IMG/VR virus record: IMGVR_UViG_3300014494_000005
Location: 284,924-348,923 of that record
DNA: 64,000 nucleotides
Reading direction: 5' to 3' (one strand)
From: a virus
Shown here one piece after another: positions 22,833 to 56,058 of the stretch. A program made the position numbers and the translations under genes. Every line of letters begins with the position of its first letter. Within the stretch, counting starts at the first letter, position 1. The notes beneath the pieces were generated by a model that made no database searches, had not been told where the DNA came from, and was given only the letters and a program-made list of their open reading frames with translations.

Positions 22833-23210
22833 ATGAGAACAAAAGAAGAAATATTAGAATATAATAAACAATATAAATTAAGAAATAAAGATAAGGTTGC
22901 AAAACATTGCGCAAAATATTATCAATTACATAAAAAAGAAATAAGTAAACGTTCAAGAATTGCTACAATAAAAGAACATGGATTAACATTAGACCAATAT
23001 GATGTTATTTTTAATAAACAGAATGGTAAATGTGTTATTTGTGGCAGACATCAAAGTGAATTAAAATTAACATTAGCTGTTGACCATGACCATATATCTG
23101 GTAAAGTAAGAGGATTATTATGTAATACCTGTAATCGTGGTATTGGTTATCTTCATGATGATATTAATTTATTAGAAAAAGCAATTCAATATATAAAAAC
23201 TAATCGTTGA
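22833..23210 (+). CDS. Endonuclease VII-like HNH nuclease
   Basis: 125 residues. Short basic N terminus of the same type as the 16912 protein (one repeat block), then CVICG (67-71), DHDHISGKVRGLLC and NTCNRGIGYL: the zinc and catalytic residues of the recombination endonuclease VII family. It follows a terminator, has GTATTTATA at 22806-22814 instead of the usual promoter, and is followed directly by small RNA copy 3. Confidence 0.88.
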   Translation: MRTKEEILEYNKQYKLRNKDKVAKHCAKYYQLHKKEISKRSRIATIKEHGLTLDQYDVIFNKQNGKCVICGRHQSELKLTLAVDHDHISGKVRGLLCNTCNRGIGYLHDDINLLEKAIQYIKTNR

Positions 23211-23409: not shown

Positions 23410-23955
23410 TTATTGATTGATGAATTGTTCATTCTTTTTCTTTACAGTAATTTCATATCCAAGAACATTTAACACTTTTTTAATATTATAAAATCTTGCT
23501 TTTTTATTACCATTTTCAATCATACTTAAAGTAGGTCTACTAATTTTTGCCATTTTACATATATCTTCCTGACGAAGATTTTGATAATTTCTACTTTCTT
23601 TAATTGTTTTACTAATTATTTGTATATCTGCATCTTCAAATATATATTCTTTTTTACTTATAATATTATCTGCATGATTATGTGCAACATTTAATAAATA
23701 ACATCCCTCATCTATTGATTTTTTTATCCATTCTTTTTCTTTTTCATCAAGATTATTTTCATCACATTCTTCCAGTATTTTAATAACTGGTTTATATCCT
23801 AATATTTTTAATTGGAAAACCCATTCATTAATTTTTTCAGAATGTGATTCAGTCATGTGTTGCTTGGGTCTTATCATATATTTACTACTCTTTCCTATAT
23901 AATGTAAATTATTTGTAAAGGGACAATAAAGACCATAAATTAAATTTTTATTCAT
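23410..23955 (-). CDS. GIY-YIG nuclease with C-terminal helix-turn-helix
   Basis: 181 residues. Residues 4-90 form a GIY-YIG domain: LIYGLYCP and LHYIGKS carry the two signature motifs, with Arg, His and Glu positions following. Residues 115-165 form an XRE-type helix-turn-helix (LRQEDICKMAKISRPTLSMIE), presumably DNA targeting or autoregulation. This fits a freestanding homing endonuclease. GTATTTATA lies 13 bases before the ATG (minus strand, 23969-23977). Confidence 0.88.
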   Translation of the reverse strand: MNKNLIYGLYCPFTNNLHYIGKSSKYMIRPKQHMTESHSEKINEWVFQLKILGYKPVIKILEECDENNLDEKEKEWIKKSIDEGCYLLNVAHNHADNIISKKEYIFEDADIQIISKTIKESRNYQNLRQEDICKMAKISRPTLSMIENGNKKARFYNIKKVLNVLGYEITVKKKNEQFINQ

Positions 23956-31866: not shown

Positions 31867-32706
31867 ATGAAATACAATGGCGAATTAAAAATAATTGATA
31901 CACAAGAAAAAGCATATTTACTTGGATTTTTATATGGCGATGGTTGTATTTCATATTCTTTCACTAAATCAAATACAGAATCATTTTCAACCAATTTAAA
32001 TATTAGTGAAATTGATGTTGAAACTATTTTAAATTTAAAAGAATGTTTTCCTTTTTTTAATTTTAATATGGGATATTGTAATAAACATAATAAAAATCAT
32101 AATAAACAAGTGGTAATAAGAAAATTATCTAAAGAATTATATAATGACCTTATGTTACATGGTATGTATCCAAGAAAATCGTTTGAAAATGCACCAAAAT
32201 TAAAAATTCCTAATATTGATGATAATTTAATGTCTCATTTTATTAGAGGATTTTTTGATGCTGATGGTACTGTATGTAACATAGCAAAAAGAAAAAATTT
32301 AATATATATTGGATTTTCGTCAGTAGCATATAATTTTCTAAATGAAATTAATTTATATTTAAAAAATAAGAATATTAATTCGTGGAAAATAAGTTCAGTT
32401 ATTCCTAAAATTAAAAATAGACAAATTTGTTATAATTTAATATTTCATAAAACTTTTGAAATACTTAAATTGATTAATTTTATGTATAAAGACGCTAATA
32501 TTAGTTTAAAAAGAAAGGCAAATAAATGTTTACAATATAAACCCATTAATAAAGTTATTGATAGAAATATTACTTGTCCTAAATGTAATAGTAATAAAAC
32601 TTGGTCACATGGAATCAGAAATAAATCAAACGAATATTTATGTAAAAATTGCGGAAAATATTTTCGAATAAAACAAAAACTTAATCAATATTTTGTAACA
32701 TATTAA
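31867..32706 (+). CDS. LAGLIDADG homing endonuclease
   Basis: 279 residues. Two LAGLIDADG helices: AYLLGFLYGDGCI (about 17-29) and HFIRGFFDADGTV (about 122-134), each with the catalytic Asp. C-terminal CPKC (about 238) and CKNC (about 259) form a zinc finger with WSHGIRNKSNEY between, probably DNA-binding. Freestanding, not in an intron that I can see; its stop precedes the rIIA-like gene. GCATTTATA lies 13 bases before the ATG. Confidence 0.9.
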   Translation: MKYNGELKIIDTQEKAYLLGFLYGDGCISYSFTKSNTESFSTNLNISEIDVETILNLKECFPFFNFNMGYCNKHNKNHNKQVVIRKLSKELYNDLMLHGMYPRKSFENAPKLKIPNIDDNLMSHFIRGFFDADGTVCNIAKRKNLIYIGFSSVAYNFLNEINLYLKNKNINSWKISSVIPKIKNRQICYNLIFHKTFEILKLINFMYKDANISLKRKANKCLQYKPINKVIDRNITCPKCNSNKTWSHGIRNKSNEYLCKNCGKYFRIKQKLNQYFVTY

Positions 32707-45362: not shown

Positions 45363-45599
45363 TTATTTACAATCAGTTTTGGTTTCAGCAAAACAAGAAA
45401 GAAGCCACATTCCATATTTTTTATCAAGCATTACTCCATGTATAACTTCTGGCATGAACATATTGAATGTATTTGACCATTTACTTGGTGTTTTAACAAC
45501 TTCATGTATTGTGACTTTCTCTCCTAATTTAAGCACTATTCCACCTGCAATATCAATAATATCGTGGCCAACAGTTAATTCATCACCGACTGCAATCAT
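45363..45599 (-). CDS. Unknown small beta-rich protein
   Basis: 78 residues, regular strands (GGIVLKLGEKVTIHEVVKTP), resembles a small barrel. Overlaps the end of the 530-residue gene by 17 bases. Similar beta content to the modules in that neighbour, so possibly derived from it. Confidence 0.66.
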   Translation of the reverse strand: MIAVGDELTVGHDIIDIAGGIVLKLGEKVTIHEVVKTPSKWSNTFNMFMPEVIHGVMLDKKYGMWLLSCFAETKTDCK

Positions 45600-47175
45600 T
45601 TTTAATTTCTTTAGTTTTATTTTCGATTACATTTTTCCATTTAATTGACTTAAATTTGTCATCAATTTTTAATATAACTCCTTTTGAACATATCATTTCA
45701 ACAGTTCCTTCACAAACTTTTCCATGATGTGAAACAATAAAAATATCATGAAGTGTAGTTAATGTTTTTAAAGTTATTGATTTGCAACCAAATTCAACAA
45801 ACTTATCGTTTTCATATATTTCAGCATTATAGCCAGAAATAGTAATATTCCTTTCATTAAAATTTTTTTTTTCTTCTTGTGTTGCATAACGAACAGCATT
45901 GTCATAAACATCTTTACTATTTCTCCATAAAACATCACGAGAAGGAGAATAATAATCTATTGATATGATTTTAAAAATCAATCCTGATTCATATCCTGCT
46001 CCACCATAGTTAATATCACTAGAATTACCAACAGTTTCAAATCCCGGTAAACAAACAACTATATCATCTACTTTATAGTTGGGTTTATTAAATGTTTCTA
46101 TTTCTTCTTGTGTAGCGTAACGAACAGCATTATCAAAAATACCATAACCAACTGTTGGAAATAAAACAGTATAGTCAGGATATTCATCTATTTTTCTAAT
46201 CTTAAAAACCAATCCTGATTCATATCCTGCTCCACCATAAATTTTACCATATGCATTATTATCATTAAATCCCGGTAAACAAACAACAATATCATCAATT
46301 TTATAATGTGGCATGACCACTTTTACTGGAGTTACTTTAGGTTTTAAATGTTTAAATGTTTCTTCAATATGTTTAAGTTCTGCTTCAAGATTTTCTTTTA
46401 ATCCTTTTAATTCATTATAGTTAATTTTTTCACAACCAATTGTTTGAATGATATATTCTATACCTTCATTGTCTTTTAGAATATAACATGTTTCAACATT
46501 CCATGATATAAATTCCTTTACTATTTCAAGAATATCACCATTTTTTGCAATTGGTTTATTTAACCAAAAATGATATTTAGTACAACCCAATTCTTTAGCA
46601 TCTTGACGCTGAGAATAACTTTTTCCAGCATTAATTACTTTTACAAATTCTTTACTTTCCATTGTTTTAGTTTTATTAGCAATATCATTTGTTTCTTTAT
46701 TATAATATAATTCTTTCCATTCATTAAATAATAAAACAGGAAGATGTTTATATTCGTTTGGAATTATATTGAAAATATTGACACCTTCATTAGAATCTCT
46801 TTCAGTATGTTTATATTTTATAACATAATTCCAATGACTCCATCTATTTTTACCACTATTTGGATGTAAAGTATTTACTACTTTAGTGGTTTCTTCCATA
46901 TTTTCGCATTTTACAATATATTCTTGAGGTAATTTATCTAATTTTGGAAGTAATTCGCAAACATCAAGCAATGTTTCTTCACTAAATCCATATTCTTTAC
47001 CATCAATTTCAATTAATAATCCAGTAAAACCAATACAATCTTTTTTATTTTTAACAATACCAACTACTGGATATTTAAAATTTACTCCAATCGGATTATT
47101 ATTAGAAAATTCACTTGACCATGTAATGGGATTTTTATTTATTCTAATTCTATCACCAATATTTAATGTTTTCAT
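45583..47175 (-). CDS. Large protein with a duplicated module
   Basis: 530 residues. Two copies of a module of about 76 residues begin near 289 and 365: each has a [KV]DDIVVCLPGF stretch, then YGGAGYESGL[VI]FKI and ends DNAVRYATQEE. The DNA of the copies is nearly identical in places, so the duplication is recent. The N terminus (GDRIRINKNPITW) and the C-terminal part look like further SH3-like barrels. Probably a multi-barrel binding protein; function unknown. Confidence 0.74.
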   Translation of the reverse strand: MKTLNIGDRIRINKNPITWSSEFSNNNPIGVNFKYPVVGIVKNKKDCIGFTGLLIEIDGKEYGFSEETLLDVCELLPKLDKLPQEYIVKCENMEETTKVVNTLHPNSGKNRWSHWNYVIKYKHTERDSNEGVNIFNIIPNEYKHLPVLLFNEWKELYYNKETNDIANKTKTMESKEFVKVINAGKSYSQRQDAKELGCTKYHFWLNKPIAKNGDILEIVKEFISWNVETCYILKDNEGIEYIIQTIGCEKINYNELKGLKENLEAELKHIEETFKHLKPKVTPVKVVMPHYKIDDIVVCLPGFNDNNAYGKIYGGAGYESGLVFKIRKIDEYPDYTVLFPTVGYGIFDNAVRYATQEEIETFNKPNYKVDDIVVCLPGFETVGNSSDINYGGAGYESGLIFKIISIDYYSPSRDVLWRNSKDVYDNAVRYATQEEKKNFNERNITISGYNAEIYENDKFVEFGCKSITLKTLTTLHDIFIVSHHGKVCEGTVEMICSKGVILKIDDKFKSIKWKNVIENKTKEIKNDCSR

Positions 47176-51968: not shown

Positions 51969-51999
51969 ATTATTTTAATTTTTATATAAAAATGTTTTA

Positions 52000-52029
52000 C
52001 AAATATAATAACTTTTTAATAATTTTCAG
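52000..52029 (-). promoter_or_regulatory. Host-type promoter for the 51968-43013 operon
   Basis: Minus strand CTG (52027-52029; consensus TTG), exactly 19 bases, TATATTTG (52000-52007). Confidence 0.6.
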
Positions 52030-52030
52030 T

Positions 52031-52060
52031 ATTTATAGATAAATTAAATTATCTATAAAT
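52031..52060. repeat. Perfect 12-bp inverted repeat before tnpB 1
   Basis: ATTTATAGATAA (52031-52042), loop ATTAAA, TTATCTATAAAT (52049-52060). Position 7 bases before the tnpB ATG suggests the left-end hairpin of an IS200/IS605-type element, or an operator. Confidence 0.75.
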
Positions 52061-52067
52061 TGTTAAA

Positions 52068-53216
52068 ATGTTAAAAGCATACAAATATAGAATATTTCCA
52101 AATCAAATCCAAATAAATCTTCTTGCTAATATATTTGGTCAAGTTAGATTTGTTTATAATCTTGGATTAGAAACTAAAATCTGTGCTTATGCAGGAAATA
52201 AAAAGAATATTGATTGTTTTGACCTTATTAAACAAATAAAAGAATTAAAAGATAACGAATGTTATTGGTTAAAGGAAGCACCTTCACAGGCATTACAAAT
52301 GTCTTTAAGAAATTTGGATAATTCATATACTAACTTCTTTAAAGGTAAAGGATTTCCTAAATTTAAGGGTAAGTATGCAAGACAAAGTTTTCAATTACCT
52401 CAAGGTATACATATTACTAAAGATAATAAACAAATTTTCATTCCTAAATTAAAATATGTTGGAATTGATTTAGATAGAGAATTTAAAGGAATTATAAAAA
52501 CCGTAACAATAAGTAAAACCGTAACTAATAAATATTTTGTATCAATATTAGTTGAAAATGATATTAAAATTCCCAATAAAAAACCAATTATTGATTCAAC
52601 AACTATTGGTATAGATTTGGGAATTAAAGATTTTGCAATAACATCTGATGGAAAGAAATTCGAGAACAAAGATTTCTTTAAATCAAAACAACATCAACTT
52701 AGAATTGAACAACGTTCACTTTCAAGAAAAGTTAAAGGAAGTAACCATTACTATAGGCAAAAAATGGTAGTTGCTTTACTTCATGAAAAGATAAAGAATC
52801 AAAGACAGGATTATCTACATAAAATCAGTAAATCTCTTATTGATAATTATGATACAATATGTCTTGAAGACTTAACTGTTAAAAATATGGTTAAGAATCA
52901 TTGTTTGGCAAGAGCTATATCTGATATGGGTTGGAGTGAGTTTAAAACAATGCTTGAATATAAAGCTAATTGGTACGGAAAGAATGTTATAACTATTGGC
53001 AGATTTGAGCCAAGTAGTAAGATTTGCAGTTGTTGTGGTAATATCAACAAGAATTTAACTCTTAATGATAGAGAATGGACATGTTCAAATTGTAAGACTA
53101 TACATGATAGAGATGTTAATGCTGCGATTAATATAAAGAATTTCGGACTTAGGAACAAGTCTGGCGTTGCGCAAAGTGATGGGATACCATGTGCTTGCAG
53201 CGTAGAAGTTAATTAA
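52068..53216 (+). CDS. tnpB: TnpB RNA-guided nuclease (IS200/IS605 type), classical
   Basis: 382 residues, full length. Basic wedge and recognition regions fill the first 175 residues. Ruv[14 protein letters not shown] with Asp183, Ruv[10 protein letters not shown] with Glu267, zinc finger CSCC (about 319) and CSNC (about 342), Ruv[14 protein letters not shown] with Asp349 are all present, so it should be catalytically active. TnpB cuts DNA using a guide RNA made from the element's right end. No tnpA transposase gene is present. The C-terminal coding end is GC-rich, fitting guide RNA overlap. Preceded by the 52031 hairpin. Confidence 0.93.
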
Positions 53217-53230
53217 TTTTTAATTAATGG
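53090..53230 (+). ncRNA. Candidate guide-RNA (omega RNA) region at the tnpB 1 right end
   Basis: By family knowledge the guide RNA overlaps the tnpB 3' end and runs past the right end. Here a GC-richer stretch (about 53164-53205) is followed by TTAATTAA-TTT-TTAATTAA (53210-53228), a perfect hairpin-forming sequence around the stop. Exact ends cannot be set from sequence alone. Confidence 0.35.
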
Positions 53231-53251
53231 TTCACAATCATAACTTTCATA

Positions 53252-53482
53252 TTATTTTTCTTTAAATGTTTGACAACCTCTGGTATAACAACCAACAAAT
53301 GATATGAACATATTCATTTTGCAATTAATATTACCATCATGATGAACGCAATTAGGACAAATCCAACCATTGGGTTTGGATTGAAGTTGTAATATTTCTT
53401 CAATGGTTATTATTGGTGTATTAATTGCGGTACTTGAATTATTATAATTCACTACTCTATCTGAATTAGTATAATTAATCAT
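53252..53482 (-). CDS. Zinc-binding small protein
   Basis: 76 residues. WICPNCVHHDGNINCK (about 36-51) and GCYTRGC near the C terminus supply Cys/His ligands for a zinc site. TAA/ATG overlap with the upstream gene. The 5' half is Asn/Ser-rich and probably disordered. Confidence 0.68.
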   Translation of the reverse strand: MINYTNSDRVVNYNNSSTAINTPIITIEEILQLQSKPNGWICPNCVHHDGNINCKMNMFISFVGCYTRGCQTFKEK

Positions 53483-54228
53483 TTAATTTTTGATTTAAAA
53501 ATAATTTCAGCATCTTCATATTCTTTACAAACTGCAATAGTTTGTTTACCTTCAATATTACTTTTTACACCATCATGATAATCATGCCATTTACATACCA
53601 CAAAATCATTAGGACTTGTAGTAAAAGTAAAAAAATTTGGAAACCAATTTTTTGCTAAAACAATGGCAATTGTAGTTATATTATCTTGCCACGCTAAGAC
53701 TGTTTTCATGTCTTCAATAATTTTGAAGTTTTCTATATTACCACCATTTCTTTCATGCATACTAATTTTAGTATTACTTTCAATTGGTTTTAATTTTTCT
53801 AATCCTTCTTGTAATTCTTCAAAAGAATAACAAATGTCACCACCATTTTCCTTAGTGAAAGCATGCATTATGTCCCATTTTTCAGGCTCTTCATCAAATA
53901 AAATAAAACAAGGTTTACCTTGCCCTATCATATAACCCAATTCCAAATGACCAGATTTTCCTGCTGGCATAACTAAAACACCCATATTACTTCTGTCTAT
54001 ATGAAACTTATCAAATTCATAAATATGTTTCGCAGCATAATTGCTAAGTGCTTGTTTATGTGTAGTGCCTCTAACTTTTTCAAAATTACGCCAAAAATCA
54101 TCTGCTTCAGGACCGGGCGAGAACCAGTCATCAAAAACTTCAAATCCTAATTCTCTGATTTTATTGGCAATGTGAGGAATTTGGTCATTTTTTAAACTAC
54201 CAATTAAATAAATTATTTTTTTAGACAT
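53479..54228 (-). CDS. Nucleoside 2-deoxyribosyltransferase-like protein
   Basis: 249 residues. KIIYLIGSLKND at the start, VFDDWFSPGPEADDFWR (31-47), then VMPAGKSGHLELGYMIGQGKP with Glu96 match the nucleoside 2-deoxyribosyltransferase fold, where the Glu attacks the N-glycosidic bond. The C-terminal 100 residues are an extra, unrecognised domain (WQDNITTIAIVLAKNW). Possible roles are base exchange in nucleotide metabolism or cleavage of a nucleotide signal; the choice cannot be made here. Confidence 0.8.
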   Translation of the reverse strand: MSKKIIYLIGSLKNDQIPHIANKIRELGFEVFDDWFSPGPEADDFWRNFEKVRGTTHKQALSNYAAKHIYEFDKFHIDRSNMGVLVMPAGKSGHLELGYMIGQGKPCFILFDEEPEKWDIMHAFTKENGGDICYSFEELQEGLEKLKPIESNTKISMHERNGGNIENFKIIEDMKTVLAWQDNITTIAIVLAKNWFPNFFTFTTSPNDFVVCKWHDYHDGVKSNIEGKQTIAVCKEYEDAEIIFKSKIK

Positions 54229-54262
54229 GCTTTTTATTGGTTTATATAAAGTTATTTTAATT

Positions 54263-54289
54263 AAAAAACCCCTGTAATAATTACAAGGG
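54263..54289 (-). terminator. Intrinsic terminator of the 54320-54508 gene
   Basis: Minus strand CCCTTGTAAT pairs with ATTACAGGGG (one mismatch), then T6. The leader TATATAAACCAATAAAAAGC of the next gene begins soon after. Confidence 0.78.
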
Positions 54290-54319
54290 TCAAATATAAT
54301 AAATATTTTTTAATTACAA

Positions 54320-54508
54320 TTATTTTTTCTTATATTTTTTAATAAAATCTTTTATTTCTTTTAATACGGTTGTCATTAATTCTTGATTTGCTTCACCAAC
54401 TTCACTTATGCTACGTAAATGGTCGCCAAATGATGGAAAATTGGCATTATCAACCTCATTTAAGAATACTTGTAGTTCTTCATTGATGATTTGTTTTACA
54501 CTTGACAT
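54320..54508 (-). CDS. Unknown small acidic protein
   Basis: 62 residues, helical, acidic, with a basic tail (KKYKKK). GTATTTATA sits 11 bases before the ATG on the minus strand (54520-54528). No motif recognised. Confidence 0.66.
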   Translation of the reverse strand: MSSVKQIINEELQVFLNEVDNANFPSFGDHLRSISEVGEANQELMTTVLKEIKDFIKKYKKK

Positions 54509-54577
54509 GATAGTTTTTATATAAATACTAATATAAAATATGTTTATTAAAATGTAAATTTTCTGAACTATTATAGT

Positions 54578-54601
54578 ATTTATGTCTATATAGACGTAAA
54601 T
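54578..54601. repeat. 24-bp near-palindrome before tnpB 2
   Basis: ATTTATGTCTAT-ATAGACGTAAAT with one mismatched pair, ending two bases before the ATG. Same placement as the hairpin before tnpB 1 and a similar ATTTAT start, but different centre. Confidence 0.75.
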
Positions 54602-54603
54602 TT

Positions 54604-55845
54604 ATGCAATTAGTAGAACAACATATTATTAAACAAGATAATCAATATTTTAAAGAAATTGATAATCTTTGCTTTCTTTCTAAAAATTTATATAATAGTT
54701 GTTTATATCTTATTCGACAAGAATTTATTCATAATAAAAATAATGTTTTATATGAATTGCATCATCGAATGAAAAATACTGAACAATATTGGGCATTACC
54801 TGCTAAAGTATCATCAAACGTTATTATTGCCGTACAACATAATTTTAAATCGTTTTTTGCTGCGCTAAAAGTATATAATATAAATCCATCTAAATTTACA
54901 TCAAAGCCAAAATTACCTTATTATTTAGATAAAGAAAATGGAAGATTTTTTGTATCATATACTAACCAAGCTATTTCTAAGAAAGTGTTTAAAAAAACAA
55001 ATAAAATTAAATTAAGTAAATCAAACATTGAATTTAAAACCAAAATAAATGATTTTAATGTTATTGATTGTATAAGAATAATACCTAAAATTGGATATTA
55101 TGTTATTGAAGTGGTCTCAACTATAGAGGATATACCAATATTATTGAATAATGATAAATATTCAAGTATTGATTTGGGGGTAAATAATTTAGCCACTGTT
55201 GTTAGTAATATTAAAGAAATTAAACCATATATAATTAATGGAAAACCGTTAAAATCAATAAATCAATATTATAATAAGAAAAAAGCATGTTTACAATCAA
55301 TATTAAGAATTAGAAATAAAAAATATGGTTCAAAGCAATTAAACAAATTAAATTTAAAAAGAAAATGTAAGGTTGATAATTATTTACATAAAGCAAGTAA
55401 AATAATTATTAATGAATTAATTAATAATAACATTAACACATTAATTATTGGTAAAAATAATTATTGGAAAAATGAAAGTAGATTAAATAAAACAAATAAT
55501 CAAAATTTTGTACAAATACCACATAGTAGATTTATAGATATGCTAAAATATAAATGCGAAAGACGGGGTATTAATGTTATGTGTAGAGAAGAAAGTTATA
55601 CAAGTAAAGCAAGTTTTCTGAATTTAGATTATATACCTTCTTATAAAAAGAATGATAAAACAGTGTATGTTTTTAGTGGTTATCGTGAACATAGAGGGAT
55701 ATATAAAATTAAAAATAGTAATATTAAAATAAATTCAGATGTAAATGGCGCATATAACATATTAAGAAAAGCAATCCCAAATGCATTTGCAAATGGGATA
55801 GAGGGTATTGGAGTATATCCAGAAATCATAAATATTTTGAAGTAG
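54604..55845 (+). CDS. tnpB: TnpB RNA-guided nuclease, variant with relocated catalytic Glu
   Basis: 413 residues. RuvC-I SIDLGVNNLATVV (Asp190) and RuvC-III INSDVNGAYNILRKA (Asp379) are normal. At RuvC-II the usual Glu is replaced by LIIGKNNYWKNE (Gly/Lys), and the conserved CREESYTSKASFLNLD (Glu329/Glu330) supplies the acid instead, as known for the rearranged-site TnpB subgroup. There are no CxxC zinc-finger pairs. C terminus NAFANGIEGIGVYP is typical. It is unrelated at close range to tnpB 1, so two separate acquisitions. No tnpA. Confidence 0.9.
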   Translation: MQLVEQHIIKQDNQYFKEIDNLCFLSKNLYNSCLYLIRQEFIHNKNNVLYELHHRMKNTEQYWALPAKVSSNVIIAVQHNFKSFFAALKVYNINPSKFTSKPKLPYYLDKENGRFFVSYTNQAISKKVFKKTNKIKLSKSNIEFKTKINDFNVIDCIRIIPKIGYYVIEVVSTIEDIPILLNNDKYSSIDLGVNNLATVVSNIKEIKPYIINGKPLKSINQYYNKKKACLQSILRIRNKKYGSKQLNKLNLKRKCKVDNYLHKASKIIINELINNNINTLIIGKNNYWKNESRLNKTNNQNFVQIPHSRFIDMLKYKCERRGINVMCREESYTSKASFLNLDYIPSYKKNDKTVYVFSGYREHRGIYKIKNSNIKINSDVNGAYNILRKAIPNAFANGIEGIGVYPEIINILK

Positions 55846-55884
55846 ATAAATTTTATTTACATACTCTTCAACGTGATAACATAA

Positions 55885-56058
55885 TTAATTTTCTTTAGGC
55901 ATTGGTTCGGCTTTACTATCACCTAATATTCATTCAAGAGCATATTTCACACCCTCTTCATAGGACATTCCGTGATACTTACCACCGTTTTTTTCGGCTT
56001 CTACAATTCTGTCAAGTTGTTCATAAACTTGTTTTGTGGTTCTTACTCCAATTGTCAT
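55885..56058 (-). pseudogene. Small gene interrupted by an in-frame TGA
   Basis: ATG at 56058; 42 codons (IGVRTTKQVYEQLDRIVEAE and onward to YALE), then TGA at 55930-55932, then ILGDSKAEPMPKEN and TAA at 55885-55887 in the same frame. The TGA lies where a Trp (TGG) would fit, so one G to A change probably ended the gene early. Confidence 0.6.

Follow-up and report, generated by a model that had tools for sequence, protein, structure and literature searches.

The TnpB of ISDra2, an insertion sequence (IS) of the IS200/IS605 family, uses TTGAT as transposon-associated motif (TAM), and TldRs are TnpB relatives with inactivated catalytic residues. TnpB of IS200/IS605 elements was described as a gene drive of plasmids that spreads by cutting copies lacking the insertion (PMC11870625). 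In the IS607 family, the catalytic Glu of ISFba1 TnpB is E290, its TAM is AGGAG and its RNA, RAGATH-18, is encoded separately downstream of the gene (PMC11061315; PDB 8iaz), and in Fanzor and pro-Fanzor proteins an alternative catalytic Glu (Ealt) occurs together with a DPG motif in RuvC-I (PMC10711439). In the nuclease genes of phage T4 coding for I-TevI, I-TevII, I-TevIII and SegB and in mobE of phage Aeh1, the early mRNA reading through from upstream forms a hairpin over the translation start, which the late mRNA cannot form (PMC2988022; PMC3014915); SegB and MobE are free-standing homing endonucleases (PMC2988022). Here, we analysed the last 64 kb (the window, to which positions refer) of the 348,923-base virus record IMGVR_UViG_3300014494_000005, which contain two tnpB genes, tnpB1 (52068-53216, + strand, 382 amino acids) and tnpB2 (54604-55845, + strand, 413 amino acids), both intact open reading frames (ORFs). 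Together with a third gene of the record, tnpB3, they probably, on balance, encode RNA-guided nucleases of IS200/IS605 and IS607 elements that have lost tnpA and persist as free-standing homing endonucleases. The record carries T4-type rIIA/rIIB, portal, terminase, gp25 and baseplate genes and, judged from these genes, the host of the tnpB genes is a T4-like jumbo phage of bacteria.

Origin of TnpB1 and TnpB2 from two IS families

Both gene products were assigned to TnpB by Pfam and NCBIfam. TnpB1 scored 353 against NF040570 (cutoff 100) and 423.1 bits against NF038281, slightly below the cutoff of 425. It has all features of an IS200/IS605 TnpB, namely the TnpB domains, the D-E-D triad (D183, E267 and D349) and a CxxC/CxxC zinc finger (C320/C323 and C339/C342); triad and finger had been stated in an earlier note on this DNA. 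TnpB1 could be aligned over its full length with TnpB of ISDra2 (PDB 8bf8, 8h1j; E = 5e-72), and the two agree in domain order, triad and zinc finger, and in both the omegaRNA overlaps the gene at its 3' end. Unlike ISDra2, however, tnpB1 has neither a tnpA nor a recognisable left-end hairpin, and it is preceded by a phage-type late leader. The ratio of nonsynonymous to synonymous substitution rates (dN/dS) of tnpB1 and its relatives amounted to 0.09-0.17; by sequence comparison the tnpB genes are under purifying selection, and their triads are intact. The nearest non-identical relatives of TnpB1, L004 (80% identity) and L005 (78%), encode a divergent Y1 TnpA. Since the closest relatives retain the transposase gene, tnpB1 is taken to be the orphan of a complete IS200/IS605 element.

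TnpB2 is an IS607-type TnpB; its relocated Glu and the lack of a zinc finger had also been seen in the note. All 25 aligned homologs have D190, E330 and D379, Gly takes the place of the canonical Glu in every one aligned there, and the finger cysteines are gone (A336 and S337). E330, placed as Ealt, is presumably the catalytic Glu, which gives TnpB2 a complete nuclease triad. The AlphaFold model was confident (predicted local distance difference test score of 88.6) and matched structures of Cas12f, TnpB and Fanzor2. TnpB2 has the relocated RuvC-II Glu beside a YTSK motif and the IS607 origin in common with Fanzor and pro-Fanzor, but differs in having DLG instead of DPG in RuvC-I and no zinc finger and, therefore, is not a Fanzor. 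The relocated-Glu, finger-less type of TnpB is widespread and already known. The nearest relative of tnpB2 (67% identity) retains a serine TnpA and is, like L004 for tnpB1, the ground for regarding tnpB2 as an orphan. A serine TnpA of the IS607 type is encoded directly upstream in at least five phage relatives and likewise at 30 of 80 bacterial loci, mainly of Cyanobacteria and Chloroflexi; members of the clade thus adjoin a serine recombinase, and tnpB2, itself without TnpA, is by this relationship IS607-derived. With TnpB of ISFba1 it shares the IS607 origin and the TnpB fold; unlike ISFba1 it has a relocated Glu, a TGGTC-like site and an RNA that overlaps the gene, and neither RAGATH-18 nor any other Rfam RNA was matched, so that the downstream RAGATH-18 right-end element RNA of the ISFba1 type is not seen here. 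The note called the two nucleases "unrelated", which goes too far, since both are TnpBs and homologous, though of different IS families. That both lack tnpA was borne out: neither a Y1 transposase nor a serine recombinase was found across the 348,923-base record.

Predicted guide RNAs, element ends and insertion sites

The predicted omegaRNA scaffold of tnpB1 (53131..53235, +) overlaps the 3' end of the gene and terminates in GGTTCAC. In the alignment of this region of ~100 nt, 98.5% of the cells were paired, 10 of 22 pairs were changed on both sides and the covariation score was reached by none of 500 shuffles, which strongly supports the assignment of the ~100 nt ahead of the guide as scaffold. 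Within it lies the right-end palindrome of the element (53209..53227, +), and relatives have a covarying palindrome at the equivalent position. In the relatives, similarity breaks off sharply after GTTCA(C/T), where the flanking DNA starts, and the predicted guide is AATCATAACTTTCATATTAT (53236..53255, +). The 3' omegaRNA and the flank-derived guide of IS200/IS605 elements are, hence, both found at tnpB1. Its left end is less complete. No left-end hairpin could be recognised, though one is present in L004, L005 and L009-L013, and with neither this hairpin nor a Y1 tnpA the element does not have the make-up of an autonomous IS200/IS605 element. The left boundary is probably marked by TTTAT (51981..51985, +); the left ends of L004, L005, L013 and L009 are likewise bordered on the outside by a TTTAT-like sequence. 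TTTAT is, therefore, the probable TAM of tnpB1, in place of TTGAT in ISDra2.

The omegaRNA region of tnpB2 (55765..55866, +; RNA start uncertain) contains ATAGAGGG (55798-55805) and a stem (55803-55820) and has the conserved end TACTC. TAGAGGG did not vary among 14 aligned tnpB2-type sequences, three homologs retain ATAGAGG in a different reading frame, and compensatory changes occur in the stem following TAGAGGG. Together, these observations give moderate support to an RNA signal, that is, an omegaRNA scaffold, in the 3' region of tnpB2. Relatives diverge after ACTC, and the predicted guide is TTCAACGTGATAACATAATT (55867..55886, +). In two relatives, L030 and L032, joining both flanks at precisely TGGTC^guide restores an ORF that the element interrupts, which locates both ends of the IS607 element and makes TGGTC the probable TAM of the IS607 relatives of tnpB2. 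The interrupted ORF in L032, which comes from a T4-like phage of 325 kb, is a dCMP deaminase; the complete IS607 element (tnpA and tnpB, L032 3200-5600) splits it at its conserved STKVGA motif. tnpB2 itself has lost the IS607 left end and the tnpA region.

In the relatives the guide corresponds to the DNA flanking the element and is different in every one of them. Therefore, the empty site of the element itself is favoured as target and fixed host loci are disfavoured. An exact search with both guides in 2.9 million viral contigs gave only self copies, from a near-identical record. Within the phage, the best second site for guide 1 differed at 2 of 16 positions and that for guide 2 at 3, which is meaningless in such AT-rich DNA. 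In L065, the nearest syntenic phage, other small genes are found at both tnpB spots, with no clean empty junction, and since L065 carries other genes there, the sites of tnpB1 and tnpB2 are, on the available genomes, variable intergenic spots between related phages. The gene between the two tnpBs (53479-54228) is 96% identical to L065 at the DNA level over its first 147 codons and has a C-terminal extension of 100 residues that is missing in L065; the surroundings are 83-89% identical. The region had no DNA-level match among sequenced phages.

The earlier note had also considered an attack on host loci or competing phages. A domesticated effector with a fixed guide against the host or other phages, acting as TldR-like regulator or in inter-phage defence, would agree with intact tnpB genes that have their own promoter on a phage, and TldRs provide a precedent for phages being able to domesticate TnpB; like the tnpBs they are phage-encoded TnpB relatives without a transposase (PMC13418256). 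But the catalytic triads of the tnpBs are intact, unlike those of TldRs, the guides depend on the location and differ among relatives instead of being fixed, and neither guide had an exact non-self match in the viral contigs. We regard this explanation as improbable, and an attack on host loci found no support from the guide search, in which viral contigs were covered and bacterial genomes were outside.

A more serious rival is that the genes are parts of non-autonomous IS elements that are mobilised by a transposase in trans, with TnpB guarding against loss by excision and the phage being a passive carrier. It is the main rival because related copies without tnpA, those of L015 and L016, are 94% identical and flanked by different DNA. 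Besides, tnpB1 retains its right-end palindrome, and L009-L011 and L013 have kept both end hairpins with no transposase in the record. Yet tnpB1 is without the left-end hairpin seen in its relatives, tnpB2 without the IS607 left end and the tnpA region, and the phage record without a detectable transposase; furthermore, mobility in trans leaves the common late leader of the tnpBs, described below, unexplained. We consider this rival possible but rather unlikely.

A late-promoter-like motif in a hairpin at the translation start

The motif GTATTTAT, which contains ATTTAT, was found 71 times within 60 nt upstream of 437 ORFs, with 2.7 occurrences expected, and mostly 20-30 nt ahead of the ATG. 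Since portal, terminase, gp25 and baseplate genes are among those that follow it, GTATTTAT is most likely the late promoter of the phage. The classic T4 late promoter TATAAATA was not enriched in sense orientation (19 versus 17.5 expected); GTATTTAT is a strong promoter-like motif of the phage lineage whose sense is opposite to that of TATAAATA. Another upstream octamer, CGTATACT, was enriched in the whole record (10 versus 0.1 expected).

Upstream of tnpB1, a hairpin (52031..52060, +) with perfect arms of 12 bp (52031-52042 and 52049-52060) contains the motif (52029..52036, +) in its 5' arm. Upstream of tnpB2, the motif (54576..54583, +) likewise forms the 5' side of a hairpin (54578..54601, +) whose arms of 10 bp (54578-54587 and 54592-54601) have one mismatch. 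The ATTTAT palindromes near the start codons, reported in the earlier note, indeed exceed chance (shuffle p about 0.002 for tnpB1 and about 0.012 for tnpB2). The leader of tnpB3 has the motif and a hairpin with perfect 10-bp arms as well, and in all three genes the motif forms the 5' arm and the 3' arm stops no more than about 8 bases from the start codon. When the 71 motif genes were ranked by hairpin, tnpB1 was 2nd, tnpB3 3rd and tnpB2 9th; the chance of all three being in the top 9 is 0.0015. Nuclease genes made up 8 of the 14 motif genes with a hairpin at p ≤ 0.05 but 8 of the 57 others (p = 0.0017); the eight encode three TnpBs, a GIY-YIG, a Vsr-like, a LAGLIDADG and two endonuclease-VII-like enzymes. 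The hairpin as a general rule for nuclease genes of the phage was rejected, since 8 of 16 motif-bearing nuclease genes reach p ≤ 0.05.

Among tnpBs of phage relatives, a significant leader hairpin was present in 8 of 13 with an upstream TATTTAT versus 1 of 35 without it; it was found in none of the seven tnpA-bearing ones. L015 and L016 among these relatives are near-copies. In the 80 bacterial relatives of tnpB2 the motif was absent and hairpins were at chance level (2/80). L007, L008 and L010 have comparable hairpins with arm sequences that differ from tnpB1. A start-proximal palindrome could also be a transposon left end, but this was rejected: L009-L011 carry a left-end hairpin farther upstream which matches their own right-end palindrome, and the motif occurs genome-wide. 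The start-proximal hairpin is present in addition in L010 and weaker in L009 and L011. Because L009-L011 have the left-end hairpin further upstream and L010 has both, the start-proximal palindrome is, in these alignments, a promoter/start-codon hairpin separate from the transposon end.

The tnpBs resemble a subset of the T4-type homing endonuclease genes in being nuclease genes of a T4-like phage with a late promoter or late-promoter-like motif in the 5' arm of a hairpin at the translation start. They differ in encoding an RNA-guided TnpB in place of a protein-guided GIY-YIG or HNH enzyme, in the motif (GTATTTAT instead of TATAAATA) and in start codons without evident Shine-Dalgarno sequence; the likeness is one of anatomy alone.

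Retention of tnpB genes in the phage

The two tnpBs counted in the earlier note are all there are in the window, but the record holds three intact ones. tnpB3 (G000:C1:3340-4611, corresponding to L001 589-1860) is IS200/IS605-like, identical in three further records and, used as additional query, yielded few more relatives. An isolated right-end-like sequence upstream of it, CCTAATTATGGGTGGTTCAC at L001 about 140-163 (G000 about 2891-2914), is perhaps the relic of a fourth element. It suggests decay of another copy and, together with the loss of tnpA and left ends, could mean that the tnpBs too are decaying relics without present function; we consider this very improbable, since the ORFs are of full length, the catalytic residues are invariant and dN/dS is low, the RNA covaries and the leader has both motif and hairpin. 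A palindrome linked to GTTCAC at G000 51296 was set aside, being inside an intact ORF of 1044 amino acids.

Numerous nuclease families coexist in the phage genome. Additional nuclease genes of the window (31867-32706, 22833-23210 and 23410-23955) are one for an HNH-type endonuclease adjoining rIIA, one resembling endonuclease VII and one that has a helix-turn-helix domain and matches GIY-YIG weakly. Besides, an ORF of 530 amino acids (45583-47175) contains, at 45852-46305, a stretch of about 226 bases repeated directly with 76% identity. As to other records, TnpBs of the 380-kb record G018 (L034) have in-frame TAG codons, which suggests a recoded phage, and in the 188-kb record G013 (L019), 14 matches to TnpB accompany a single Y1 transposase.

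In being intergenic, transposase-free nuclease genes of a T4-like phage, the tnpBs match the free-standing homing endonucleases of such phages. Homing, which the earlier note had suggested as one benefit behind their retention, fits: the genes are intact and under purifying selection, the scaffolds are conserved, the leaders T4-like and the sites variable intergenic spots. In plasmids, the TnpB drive is that of active IS elements, whereas the phage tnpBs have no tnpA. By analogy, promoter activity, translational control, cleavage and homing would work as follows. Early or middle mRNA reading through would fold the leader hairpin and be translated poorly, and late mRNA, which would start inside the hairpin, would be translated. 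TnpB would then take the 3' end of its own mRNA as guide RNA and cleave the empty allele of a relative infecting the same cell, about TTTAT-AATCATAACTTTCAT for tnpB1 and TGGTC-TTCAACGTGATAAC for tnpB2, and recombination would copy the tnpB allele into the cut relative. In close relatives, the empty alleles would be expected to read TTTATAATCATAACTTTCAT and TGGTCTTCAACGTGATAAC. More tentatively still, T4-like jumbo phages may have turned RNA-guided nucleases of two independent transposon families into transposase-free, late-switched homing endonucleases with T4-type promoter-in-hairpin control.

Several points weigh against homing. The guide matching to related phages proposed in the earlier note gave no empty allele for either guide among the 2.9 million viral contigs, and the original TAM of tnpB2 is out of sight within the window, its left end being lost. 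GTATTTAT is called a late promoter solely from the genes it precedes. Without the TnpBs, nuclease genes are weakly enriched among those with a hairpin (p = 0.029 at one threshold and 0.12-0.18 at others); the genes were sorted into nuclease classes after an initial inspection, and a few of those with the motif were left unscanned.

It is already known that phages carry TnpBs, that the Glu is relocated in some TnpBs and that TnpB can act in a homing-like retention. In a limited literature check, with most subscription journals outside, we found no description of phage TnpBs that come from two IS families, lack a transposase and stand under a T4-type late leader. tnpB is common in phages, and the question addressed here is why lytic phages retain copies without a transposase. 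With the TGGTC site inferred and the RNA ends mapped, assays of both enzymes should be simple to set up. If the shared late leader is real, the tnpBs would belong to the regime of the T4 homing endonucleases and provide a naturally occurring, RNA-guided equivalent of SegB and MobE.

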